From contig NZ_FSQW01000002.1 of NCBI RefSeq assembly GCF_900128895.1, forward strand, positions 1,302,001 to 1,366,000: a stretch of 64,000 nt of DNA, written 5' to 3'. The translations under genes and the position numbers were made by a program. A model generated the notes under the pieces. It had not been told where the DNA came from. It worked only from the letters and a program-made list of their open reading frames with translations, and did no database searches. This stretch comes from Parasphingorhabdus marina DSM 22363. Its GTDB lineage: Bacteria > Pseudomonadota > Alphaproteobacteria > Sphingomonadales > Sphingomonadaceae. Each line of letters starts with the position of its first letter. Position 1 is the stretch's first letter. Positions 35,646 to 39,219 of this stretch are shown here, piece by piece.

Positions 35646-37982
35646 CTAATGCTTGCTGTCGCGCTCCGGCGTCAGCATGCCGGGGGCGACAAATCCGATC
35701 GGTTCGGCGCGCATCGCACTTTGCTTGAGCGATGCTTCCATCTTGGAATATTCTTCCTCCATTTCCGGTGTCACCGAAGCGCGGCTGTCTTTCAGCGCCT
35801 TTTCGAAATGCTTCATTCCCACGGTCTCGACCAGCCCGCCATGTTCGCGCAACGCATAGAGGCCGGCCCGGCGCACCAGATCCTCGAGATCAGCACCCGA
35901 ATAGCGTTCCGTCCGCTCGGCAATGTCGTCAAGATCGACATCTTTGGCGATCGGCATTTTCGAGGTGTGGATCGCGAGGATGCGGCGCCGTCCATCCTTG
36001 CCGGGAACCGACACATAGACCAGCTCGTCAAAACGGCCCGGTCGCAAAAGTGCCGGGTCCACCAGACCGGGGCGATTCGTGGCACCGATCAGGATGACCG
36101 ACTGCATTTCCTCCAGCCCGTCCATCTCGGCGAGAATCGTATTCACCACCCGCTCCGTCACCTGCGGCTCGCCCATTCCGCGGCCCCGGGCGGGGACCAG
36201 ACTGTCGATCTCGTCGATGAAAAGGATCGTCGGGGCCACTTGCCGGGCACGGGCGAACAGGCGGGCAATCTGCTGCTCGCTTTCGCCATACCATTTGGAC
36301 AGCAGGTCACTCGACTTGGTCGCGATGAAATTGGCATCCGCTTCACGCGCGGCCGCCTTGGCCAGCAGGGTCTTGCCCGTTCCCGGGGGACCATAAAGGA
36401 GGAACCCCTTGGCCGGGCGAATGCCCAGCTTGGTAAAGGCTTCGGGATTTTTCATCGGCAGTTCAATGCCTTCCTTGAGGCGCATCTGCGCGTCATCCAG
36501 TCCGCCAATATCCTCCCAGCGCACATCGGGAGCCTGGACCATCACCTCGCGCATCGCAGATGGCTGCACGCGCTTGAGTGCCTCGACAAAGTCATTGCGC
36601 TGCACGACCAGTTCATCAAGCACTTCCGGCGGAACGGTTTCCGACTCCAGATCGAGCTTTGGCATGATTCGCCGCACGGCTTCAATCGCAGCCTCCCGCG
36701 TCAGCGCCGCCAGATCGGCACCGACAAACCCGTAGGTTGTACGGGCCAGCTCGTGCAGGTCCACTGCGCTTTCGAGTGGCATCCCGCGCGTGTGGATCCC
36801 CAGTATCTCGCGGCGGCCGCGCGCGTCGGGCACGCCGACGATGATCTCGCGGTCAAAACGGCCGGGGCGGCGCAGCGCTTCGTCAATGGCTTCCGGCCGG
36901 TTGGTGGCGGCAATCACCACCAGATTGAGCCGGGATTCCAGACCATCCATCAGGGTCAGCAATTGCGCGACCAGCCGCTTCTCGGTTTCGCCCTGGACCT
37001 CGCCCCGCTTGGGCGCGATGGAGTCGATTTCATCAATAAACAGGATCGAGGGGGCCGACTTGGTCGCAGCCTCAAAGACTTCGCGCAGCTTTTTCTCGGA
37101 TTCGCCATAGGTCGACCCCATGATCTCCGGGCCGTTGATCAGAAAGAATTCGGCATCGCTTTCATTGGCGACGGCCCGGGCCAGGCGGGTCTTTCCGGTG
37201 CCTGGCGGGCCATGGAGCAGCACCCCGCGTGGCGGATCGACACCGAGCCGCGTGAACAGCTGCGGATAGCGGAGCGGCAGCTCGACCATCTCGCGCAGCT
37301 GATCGATTGTCTCATGCAAGCCGCCAATGTCATCATAGGTGACATCTGCCCGGCGATGCTCGGTCGATTCCTCATATTCCGGCCGGAGTTCCACCTCGGT
37401 ATTCTCGTCGATATGGACAAAACCCTTCGGCGTGGTGGACACAACGGTGAGCCGTATCTGCTGCAGCGAAAAGGCCGGGGCGGCGAGCATCTGTCGCAAT
37501 TGCGGCGGCATGTCGCTGCGATCCACCTGTTGCTGGCCATGGGTCGCGACAAAATCACCGGCATTCAGTGGCCGTCCCATGAAGCTGCGCTTGAGACCAT
37601 TACCGCTGCCGTGCAGTCGCAGGTCTTTCTGGGCTGGTGCGAAGACCACTTTTTTCGCCGGCTTCGATTCGACCTTGCGGATTTCGACGAAATCGCCGGA
37701 CCCGACTCCGGCATTGGCGCGTTGCAACCCGTCCAGCCGGACAAAATCCAGTCCTTCATCTTCTGGATAGGGCAAAACCGCCCGTGCGGGAGTCGCCTGC
37801 TTGCCGCAAATCTCGATAACCTCGCCTTCCACAAGACCCAGCGTTGCCATATTGTCTCGCGACAAGCGGGCCAGACCACGCCCGCTGTCTTCCGATCGCG
37901 CATTGGCGACCTGGAGCCGAAGCATGTTCGGGTCCTTGTCGTCGTCCTTTTTTTTGTCCGGGGAGTCAGAATTGTCAGACAT
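35646..37982 (-). CDS. CDC48/VAT-type AAA+ ATPase
   Basis: A 778-residue protein with the full architecture of CDC48/p97/VAT: N-terminal double-psi barrel (from about residue 20, LQVANARSEDSGRGLARLS), second N sub-domain, ring D1 with GPPGTGKTRLARAVA near residue 254 and Walker B ILFIDEIDSIAPKRGE, and ring D2 with GPPGTGKTLLAKAAA near 529 and ILFIDEIDSLVPARG. ATP-driven unfolding of proteins for the protease is its usual role. Such ATPases are common in archaea and eukaryotes and patchy in bacteria. ATG at 37982 follows AGGAG. It converges with the MFS gene (21 bases). Confidence 0.93.
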   Translation of the reverse strand: MSDNSDSPDKKKDDDKDPNMLRLQVANARSEDSGRGLARLSRDNMATLGLVEGEVIEICGKQATPARAVLPYPEDEGLDFVRLDGLQRANAGVGSGDFVEIRKVESKPAKKVVFAPAQKDLRLHGSGNGLKRSFMGRPLNAGDFVATHGQQQVDRSDMPPQLRQMLAAPAFSLQQIRLTVVSTTPKGFVHIDENTEVELRPEYEESTEHRRADVTYDDIGGLHETIDQLREMVELPLRYPQLFTRLGVDPPRGVLLHGPPGTGKTRLARAVANESDAEFFLINGPEIMGSTYGESEKKLREVFEAATKSAPSILFIDEIDSIAPKRGEVQGETEKRLVAQLLTLMDGLESRLNLVVIAATNRPEAIDEALRRPGRFDREIIVGVPDARGRREILGIHTRGMPLESAVDLHELARTTYGFVGADLAALTREAAIEAVRRIMPKLDLESETVPPEVLDELVVQRNDFVEALKRVQPSAMREVMVQAPDVRWEDIGGLDDAQMRLKEGIELPMKNPEAFTKLGIRPAKGFLLYGPPGTGKTLLAKAAAREADANFIATKSSDLLSKWYGESEQQIARLFARARQVAPTILFIDEIDSLVPARGRGMGEPQVTERVVNTILAEMDGLEEMQSVILIGATNRPGLVDPALLRPGRFDELVYVSVPGKDGRRRILAIHTSKMPIAKDVDLDDIAERTERYSGADLEDLVRRAGLYALREHGGLVETVGMKHFEKALKDSRASVTPEMEEEYSKMEASLKQSAMRAEPIGFVAPGMLTPERDSKH

Positions 37983-38108
37983 CAGGCGATTCTCCTGCCG
38001 CTTACCTATTATCAACTAGATAGGGTCGATGCGGCCAATATGCGACTCTCAATATCGCAATCGCAGCACTGGTCCCGCGACTTCGATACCGGGCAAGCTG
38101 AAAAAACC

Positions 38109-38139
38109 AAAAAAAAGGCCAGCCCCGAAGGACTGGCCT
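38109..38139 (-). terminator. strong orphan intrinsic terminator, minus strand
   Basis: On the minus strand the stem AGGCCAGTCC / GGGCTGGCCT closes with a C(UUCG)G tetraloop and is followed by seven T. There is no minus-strand gene upstream of it before the LysR gene region. The plus strand has no such T-run. Confidence 0.85.
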
Positions 38140-38190
38140 GAAAAGTTTTTAGGAGAGGATGCCTGAAAGGCCCGTCCTAATTGGGCCAGA
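38109..38190 (-). ncRNA. candidate small RNA ending in the orphan terminator
   Basis: From about 38190 the minus strand would give a 5' hairpin (GGCCC 38187-38183 with GGGCC 38173-38169), a single-stranded CCUCUCCU (38158-38151) that is complementary to Shine-Dalgarno sequences, and then the terminator: about 80 nucleotides in all. A possible -10 (CATAAG, 38200-38195) lies at fitting distance. The region is intergenic (CDC48-type gene to LysR gene). Similar C-rich loops are the target-binding part of many alphaproteobacterial sRNAs. No homologue was recognised; the 5' end is a guess. Confidence 0.45.
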
Positions 38191-38257
38191 ATCGCTTATG
38201 TTGCAAGTGCGAAATAGACATTGATAGTTGCATGATTTGCAACCAATATAGTTCAAT

Positions 38258-38275
38258 ATGGCGGATTTCCGCCAT
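38258..38275. promoter_or_regulatory. 18-bp perfect palindrome upstream of the LysR gene
   Basis: ATGGCGGA-TT-TCCGCCAT, 65 bases before the proposed LysR start. Symmetry and place fit an operator, possibly of the LysR protein itself. It also sits about 70 bases upstream of the possible small RNA promoter on the other strand. Confidence 0.4.
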
Positions 38276-38340
38276 TATCCACAGAATCTATGAAGTTTTG
38301 CATTGCACAATCCGAAATTGGCGCCAATATGCGTTGCATC

Positions 38341-39219
38341 ATGAGACGCCTTCCTCCCCTTCGCGCGCTCGAAGCCTTTATTCGCGTGGCCAGGCTCGGG
38401 TCTTCCAAAGCTGCAGCAGCTGAGCTGGCGCTGTCCGCACCGGCCCTGAGTCGGCGGATCAAGTCGCTGGAAGACCATATCGGCAAGCCGCTGTTCGAAC
38501 GCCGTAATCAGGCGATGATTCTGAACGAGGACGGCCAGACGCTGCTGGATGCGGTCGCACCGGCGATCGAAACAATCGGCGAAGCGGTCGACCAGATGAC
38601 GGTCAGCGGTGGCGATCTCCGGCTGCGCCTCGGCGTGTTGCCGCTGTTCGGGGCGACTCGACTTCTTCCCCGGCTGCCAGAGCTGCGCCAGCTGTTTCCA
38701 AAGCTTCATATCGATGTCGATACATCCAGCCATGCGGAGAACATGCTGGGCGATGTGATCGATGCGGCGATCATCATCGCTGATCATGTCGACCCCAATC
38801 TTTACAGTGTGAAACTGGATTCGAACAAGGTCTACGCCATCGCTTCAACCGAGCTGACTGAGGGCCCGAACGCCATCCGGTCGCCGGAAGATCTGAAGCA
38901 TCACAATATTCTGGTCCACAGCGACATGACGCGCGCCTTTGAACAGTGGAAAGACGCAGTCGGCCTGCCGGATCTGGAACCGGCCAGCGTCGATCATCTC
39001 AACAGCGGACCGCTGATGCTCGAAGCCGCAGCTCAGGGGCTCGGCGTGGCGATCATGCATGGCGGGCATTTTTCCGATGCCAATGACCCCCGCCTCGCCC
39101 GGCTGTTCGACCATGATGTCGACAGTCCCTACAGCTACTGGTTTGTGTGCCGGAAGCGAGACAAGAAAAACCGCGCCGTCCGGATATTCCATGACTGGGT
39201 GATCAAGGCCGGCCTCTAA
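38341..39219 (+). CDS. LysR-family transcriptional regulator
   Basis: A 292-residue protein: N-terminal winged helix (residues 1-60, RRLPPLRALEAFIRVARLGS and ALSRRIKSLEDHIGKPLFER), a linker helix, and the type II periplasmic-binding-like effector domain. The ATG at 38341 places the HTH at the usual distance; other in-frame ATGs at 38290 and 38329 exist and no ribosome binding site decides. It resembles the GcvA-like group (EQWKDAVGLPDLEPASVDH). Targets unknown. It converges with the carboxymuconolactone decarboxylase gene. Confidence 0.88.
   Translation: MRRLPPLRALEAFIRVARLGSSKAAAAELALSAPALSRRIKSLEDHIGKPLFERRNQAMILNEDGQTLLDAVAPAIETIGEAVDQMTVSGGDLRLRLGVLPLFGATRLLPRLPELRQLFPKLHIDVDTSSHAENMLGDVIDAAIIIADHVDPNLYSVKLDSNKVYAIASTELTEGPNAIRSPEDLKHHNILVHSDMTRAFEQWKDAVGLPDLEPASVDHLNSGPLMLEAAAQGLGVAIMHGGHFSDANDPRLARLFDHDVDSPYSYWFVCRKRDKKNRAVRIFHDWVIKAGL

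Follow-up and report, generated by a model that had tools for sequence, protein, structure and literature searches.

The window (the whole 64,000-nucleotide stretch of DNA analysed) contains on its minus strand, at 38173–38109, a predicted small RNA gene of a known family, alpha-r8 (SuhB/MmgR), with a function known in a relative. The data are jointly explained, with a probability of about 0.9, by a trans-acting alpha-r8 sRNA that would block ribosome binding sites with the aid of Hfq and whose promoter carries an operator more likely than not bound by a LysR-type regulator. The sRNA itself is no novelty, since the homologue of Sphingopyxis granuli has already been proven to be an Hfq-dependent translational repressor (PMC6563040). 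The parts that appear from the sequences to be new are a lineage-wide variant of the pairing core and a conserved operator in the promoter, with LysR as the foremost candidate for its binder. Family membership, conservation, structure with its pair swaps, the single above-cut-off copy, the promoter elements and the co-occurrence with LysR were computed here. Loci and genomes are numbered with the prefixes L and G. The features of the locus are as follows:

38109–38173, minus strand: predicted sRNA transcript of the alpha-r8/SuhB/MmgR type, about 65 nt (full-length RF00519 match, folds)
38161–38171, minus strand: weak 5′ hairpin GCC-UUUCA-GGC (folds; GCC and GGC retained in 88 of 88 sRNAs examined)
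38150–38160, minus strand: putative anti-Shine-Dalgarno pairing core AUCCUCUCCUA (unvarying in 30 of 30 genus loci)
38109–38139, minus strand: intrinsic terminator with a 10-pair stem, UUCG loop and U7 (stem scan; stem and T tract in 88 of 88)
38178–38183, minus strand: putative −10 element CAATTA, a poor consensus match (position by homology)
38201–38214, minus strand: conserved promoter element TTTCGCACTTGCAA with a putative −35 element TTGCAA at 38206–38201 (homology)
38228–38242, no strand: palindrome TTGCA-N5-TGCAA (T-N11-A form), a proposed LysR operator (conservation; centred some 63 nt upstream of the predicted start)
35646–38015, minus strand: CDC48-family AAA ATPase gene, 3′ of the sRNA with the terminator between (TIGR01243, 924 bits, above cut-off)
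38341–39219, plus strand: divergent GcvA-like LysR-type regulator gene (PF00126, PF03466); the open reading frame could start at 38290

Family membership and anatomy of the RNA

Rfam model RF00519 (suhB/MmgR, alpha-r8) covers 38102–38178 of the minus strand over model positions 1–77, with 50 bits against a gathering score of 41, and is the only RNA family found at gathering level in the 64-kb window. Other models considered at E values up to 1, namely RF02278, RF01489, RF02869 and RF02837 on the sRNA feature and RF01694 elsewhere, were rejected, each being under its own gathering score. The sRNA has the alpha-r8 layout of a weak 5′ hairpin, a single-stranded C-rich stretch and a Rho-independent terminator. 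The exact internal 10-mer UUUCCUCCCU given for alpha-r8 in PMC12559287 is absent, and the core in the window reads AUCCUCUCCU; the sRNA is a lineage variant outside that exact description and was assigned to RF00519 on its model score. The link to an N-formylglutamate amidohydrolase gene that the same paper describes for most species was not found at the locus, where the neighbours are the LysR and CDC48 genes.

The initial annotation had proposed an sRNA of about 80 nt, with a GC hairpin, a C-rich segment and a terminator in this order. The sRNA is supported by the RF00519 gathering score, but its predicted length is smaller: the −35 TTGCAA and −10 CAATTA elements place the 5′ end at 38171–38174, corresponding to 63–66 nt. 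The terminator was recovered as described, with a ten-pair stem and UUCG loop at 38139–38116 (seven G-C pairs and one G-U) followed by seven U at 38115–38109 on the minus strand, and the C-rich segment CCUCUCCU lies at 38158–38151 as reported. The hairpin 5′ of it is present at 38171–38161 but is weak. It was also correctly stated that no minus-strand gene lies upstream, the LysR gene being divergent. The region 38182–38109 folds with −30.7 kcal/mol (z −5.19), and none of 200 shuffled sequences folded equally well. A simple terminator scan found four terminators against 4.9 expected, among which the stem of the sRNA was the sole 10-pair case, the other three having five pairs. Because this general scan gave no excess, the statistical weight rests on the family match and not on the stem alone.

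The covariance search that had been suggested detected RF00519 above the cut-off in all 32 genus genomes, and the block GCCTTTCAGGCATCCTCTCCTAAAAACTTTT did not vary in any of the 30 genus loci fetched from these. The initial annotation had named a lack of conservation of the stem and the C-rich block as evidence against an sRNA, and both are conserved in relatives. The window's own genome contains a single copy above the cut-off, with a runner-up of 24.3 bits; seven weaker secondary matches are spread over six of the genus genomes. In the family, 225 of 249 genomes have a match (201 above the cut-off; five of the 249 belong to the window's genus), and in the class 63 of 115 genomes do (51 above the cut-off). 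As many as seven alpha-r8 matches are held by one genome (G042). The gathering score was reached by 6 of 20 LysR-linked Sphingorhabdus-type loci, and the core was nonetheless present in 48 of 51 such loci; the RF00519 gathering threshold is over-strict for these copies. In some genomes alpha-r8 matches come in pairs separated by a few hundred bases, as at G173:C50:2499-2933, G066:C10:100449-100752 and G206:C94:59683-59986.

Conservation of the core and of the terminator stem

The core AUCCUCUCC was found in all 70 family loci outside the genus, where the next base is C in 44, U in 25 and neither in one. Loci from 30 other families, one from each, all carry UUUCCUCCC, the core having been taken in three of the 30 from the printed letters where the pattern script missed it. 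These loci are best-scoring matches plus one listed match per further genus, a sample in which weak copies are under-represented; some weak sRNA copies carry different core readings, and at one locus (L198) a LysR-adjacent sRNA has a variant core. The difference between AUCCUCUCC and UUUCCUCCC is a lineage-wide change of the sRNA pairing sequence that goes beyond the known family description.

A stem of at least seven pairs followed by a T tract was found in all 88 sRNAs compared (the window, 29 genus loci and 58 other genera) with a pairing-maximising stem search; a stricter terminator count with the tail folded in gave 66 of 88. Since the stems were searched for maximal pairing, the paired fraction is biased upward and the evidence lies in the pair swaps. 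With one sRNA taken per genus (n = 59), position 3 of the stem is G-C in 31, C-G in 27 and G-U in one, and positions 4–9 swap too. An alignment took in 43 of these 59 sequences. The single-stranded core and the upstream promoter elements are more conserved than the stem, whose sequence varies. This bears on a reading without any sRNA, in which the feature would merely end transcription or act as a barrier between the divergent genes. The strong stem with its U7 tract and the absence of an abutting minus-strand gene upstream would suit a barrier, but the better conservation of the core and promoter elements than of the changeable stem, the full-length RF00519 match and the proven transcripts of homologues (PMC6563040, PMC12559287) make this reading scarcely credible.

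In all 30 genus loci the sRNA is followed on its own strand by the cdc48 gene, and in other genera a cdc48 match was found at 42 of 70 sRNA loci, where LysR reaches 10 of 70. The position of cdc48 speaks for the RNA being a processing or read-through product, for example the 5′ leader of cdc48, without a promoter of its own. This origin is very improbable in view of the strong terminator between the sRNA and cdc48, the conserved promoter elements upstream of the sRNA, and Sphingorhabdus-type loci such as L078, L079, L081 and L082 without a cdc48 match, in which the downstream gene is a converging MFS-transporter gene.

The promoter palindrome and the LysR gene

A point against the overall explanation is that the putative −10 region is poor and was missed by a sigma-70 promoter scan. 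The sequence TTTCGCACTTGC of the upstream element matches exactly at all 30 genus loci, and 58 of 70 family loci show it with at most one mismatch; TTTCGCACTTGCA has one exact occurrence in the window's own genome. The palindrome, which sits 21 nt upstream of the predicted −35 element, has 0 or 1 mismatch in all 30 genus loci at a constant spacing of 13 nt to TTTCGCACTTGC. Of the 70 family loci sampled outside the genus (58 genera), 50 contain it with no more than one mismatch, compared with 0.07% of 12592 control windows from the same loci, and the 13-nt spacing is the same in 59 of 64 family loci with up to two mismatches. Of the 30 loci from outside the family, one has the palindrome and two have the promoter element at this level of 0 or 1 mismatch. 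The conserved palindrome is a new part relative to the known sRNA family and a candidate operator. LysR-type activators usually bind near −65, at T-N11-A sites. The window promoter, with a divergent LysR gene and a T-N11-A palindrome at about −63 from the predicted start, fits a layout of the gcvA-gcvB kind.

The closest NCBIfam model to the LysR protein is GcvA NF008352, with 196.3 bits under a cut-off of 288, which makes the protein GcvA-like and not GcvA. Relatives found through this gene belong to Sphingorhabdus, to Sphingomonadaceae or Sphingomonadales, and in one case to Sphingopyxis, and the family searched is accordingly taken to be Sphingomonadaceae. LysR adjoins the sRNA in all 30 fetched genus loci (cut short by the contig end in L002 and L009). 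Starting from LysR, the sRNA lies beside it in 23 of the 30 best family matches (five of the 30 being from the window's own genus) and in 15 of 40 further genera, 38 of 70 altogether, and the palindrome is present with 0 or 1 mismatch in 34 of these 38 adjacent pairs. Over 249 genomes, both genes occur in 205, LysR only in none, the sRNA only in 20 and neither in 24 (Fisher 1e-21, ancestry ignored); this co-occurrence is confounded by shared ancestry. Among the 20 sRNA-only genomes, six have the sRNA above the cut-off, and three of these are incomplete or fragmented assemblies (G165, G173 and G205). In the region between the sRNA promoter and LysR, TTATCCACA occurs at 38275–38283, a sequence which we take to be the DnaA box consensus; it was found in one of 30 genus loci, the window's own.

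Seen from the sRNA side, an adjacent LysR gene occurs at only 10 of the 70 loci sampled in the family beyond the genus. The palindrome, with at most one mismatch, is present in 44 of 60 sRNA loci without an adjacent LysR gene and in 7 of 10 with it, in a search range slightly different from that of the 50 of 70 count. The operator being equally frequent in both groups, it needs no LysR gene next door, and adjacency as the explanation of the palindrome is weakened. These counts speak for a rival account in which the sRNA is unchanged but some other regulator, widely conserved, binds the palindrome, and LysR is no more than a neighbour in some genera. In line with this, eight of the 20 sRNA-only genomes (G123, G129, G165, G173, G190, G205, G230 and G270), in which no LysR orthologue was found at E 1e-60, have the palindrome at the sRNA; a diverged orthologue would escape this cut-off, and some of the genomes are incomplete. 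The palindrome is also missing at most LysR genes that lie apart from the sRNA: it was found at 3 of 25 of them in further genera (control 2 of 210 windows), and, among the best family matches, in L195 and L209 with L207, L210, L215 and L217 devoid of it.

Several observations speak against a different regulator. Over the 249 genomes LysR never occurs without the sRNA, and the palindrome has the T-N11-A form and lies near −63, the usual position for a LysR activator. At four loci (L075, L077, L084 and L195) it is retained upstream of LysR where the adjacent sRNA is missing or degenerate; a search with RF00519 beside LysR at E up to 1 gave no match in three of the four and 22.7 bits in L077, and one weak RF00519 match, at E 2.0e-5, was found in the genome that contains L195 (G261). 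According to the open reading frame lists, 9 of 11 palindrome sites in the window's own genome lie within long reading frames, and another own-genome site, L182, is intergenic yet, with the lists read by eye, outside any divergent promoter. A different regulator keeps a considerable chance, somewhat short of even. LysR, adjacent or acting in trans, is the leading candidate for the binder of the palindrome, and its control of the sRNA is rated a little better than even, and no higher because the palindrome is as common without an adjacent LysR gene. A literature search for a link between the LysR gene and SuhB found nothing in the sources covered; the 2018 Environ Microbiol paper on SuhB, the 2018 Microbiology paper on the mmgR promoter and the Lagares 2016 survey of alpha-r8 lay outside this coverage and may hold parts of it.

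Proposed action, related systems and PhaR boxes

Transcription, Hfq dependence and repression by pairing at 5′ UTRs have been demonstrated by others for homologues, and those of Sphingopyxis, Caulobacter and Sinorhizobium are reported to be Hfq-dependent sRNAs (PMC6563040, PMC12559287, PMC8401924). For this strain, we infer transcription, targets, and the binding and activation by LysR. The exposed stretch AUCCUCUCCU, together with Hfq, would pair with mRNA ribosome binding sites AGGAGAGG, sometimes reaching the AUG, and this pairing would block translation of the target mRNAs. The role of the sRNA is probably in carbon-catabolite or carbon-storage control. The operator TTGCA-N5-TGCAA around −63 would, on balance, be bound by the divergent GcvA-like LysR, and this binding would activate the sRNA promoter. 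A more general proposal, given close to an even chance, is that Sphingomonadaceae possess a module of an alpha-r8 sRNA and a GcvA-like LysR, encoded next to it or elsewhere, which binds TTGCA-N5-TGCAA and activates a weak promoter. Here the seed AUCCUCUCC would replace UUUCCUCCC, its complement spanning the Shine-Dalgarno sequence into the AUG; LysR would act as the growth-rate or carbon sensor of SuhB and, in the window's genus, would have taken the place of the PHB-sensing PhaR control apparently present at many other alpha-r8 promoters. For an SuhB-type sRNA, the palindrome together with the co-occurring LysR gene offers a specific candidate input. If true, this would be a further LysR-sRNA pairing beside gcvA-gcvB and VtlR-AbcR1, in pollutant-degrading bacteria.

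The own genome carries an Hfq gene. Two Hfq domain matches lie at G000:C1:585645-586076 in a reported 175-residue open frame, and Hfq may be a tandem double protein. Perfect AGGAGAGG sequences before ATG were found at 15 genome sites, against 6 for the reversed pattern. Genes with a plausible start, as judged by eye from the first residues, include those for a monovalent-cation antiporter, a CBS-domain protein, an aldehyde dehydrogenase, a SnoaL-like protein and a Rieske dioxygenase alpha subunit. None of these sites is claimed as a target, since ordinary ribosome binding sites would yield such counts and account for the excess.

Among the related systems, SuhB of Sphingopyxis granuli TFA is a 61-nt RNA which with Hfq binds the thnR 5′ UTR, lowers translation and is commoner at high growth rate (PMC6563040). 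In this sphingomonad it has been proven to act in catabolite repression, and the available part of PMC6563040 names no regulator of it. The window sRNA shares with SuhB the Rfam family name, a sphingomonad host, a similar length (about 65 nt predicted), the potential to pair with mRNA leaders and an Hfq gene in the genome; the known target of SuhB is thnR (tetralin genes). MmgR of Sinorhizobium limits PHB accumulation (PMC8401924, PMC7143759). MmgR of S. meliloti likewise belongs to alpha-r8 and has hairpins, an anti-Shine-Dalgarno stretch and a terminator (PMC8401924, PMC7143759, PMC12542648). In contrast to the window sRNA, it is 77 nt long, activated by NtrC and repressed by PhaR/AniA; the window core differs from the UUUCCUCCCU of the family, and the promoters of the window's genus have no PhaR box. 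SisA of Caulobacter represses several mRNAs via its core, and SisA-D of C. crescentus resemble the window sRNA in family, layout and core-mediated repression, the last of which would be shared (PMC12559287). They comprise four copies with a CrfA sponge, sisA being linked to an N-formylglutamate amidohydrolase gene, whereas the window sRNA has one above-cut-off copy between LysR and cdc48.

Two systems are similar in their gene arrangement. Enterobacterial GcvA activates the divergent gcvB sRNA (PMC1557403), and the window has the same arrangement, its GcvA-like LysR gene pointing away from the predicted sRNA gene, which makes gcvA-gcvB an analogy for the promoter logic; GcvB is a different RNA, and LysR activation is proven for gcvB but putative for the window sRNA. 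In Agrobacterium tumefaciens, also an alphaproteobacterium, the LysR regulator VtlR adjoins the AbcR1 sRNA gene and activates it directly (PMC7486931). AbcR1 is a different RNA, and there, unlike in the window, the sRNA genes are downstream of vtlR.

The PhaR consensus box TGCRNYGCASMA, a 12-mer deduced from Bradyrhizobium footprints (PMC6201568), was searched from −80 to +10 of the sRNA starts. Regulation through a PhaR box is rejected in the window's genus, as neither TGCRNYGCASMA nor its first nine bases were found in the 80 nt upstream of the sRNA at any of the 30 loci. The box is present in 25 of 70 family loci (flanking windows 26 of 2597; shuffle mean 0.5) and in 12 of 30 loci of other families (flanking windows 3 of 930; shuffle mean 0.15). 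The PHB_acc domain PF05233, taken as PhaR, was found in 241 of 249 family genomes, including the window's own. Four PhaR-gene regions were inspected and no box was seen at the phaR gene starts, so that autoregulation lends no support. In S. meliloti, mmgR is already known to be controlled by PhaR (PMC12542648, PMC8401924), and the boxes at alpha-r8 promoters are for this reason regarded as an extension of a known link. PHB-sensing control of alpha-r8 sRNAs may be widespread across genera and families. Boxes of the PhaR type lie near −12 of the sRNA in the family loci L152, L173, L048, L134, L143, L149, L153, L156, L157 and L169, and such boxes occur in other families in L254, L257, L258 and L274. 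The boxes of L152 and L173 are identical to footprinted sites of Bradyrhizobium (PMC6201568).
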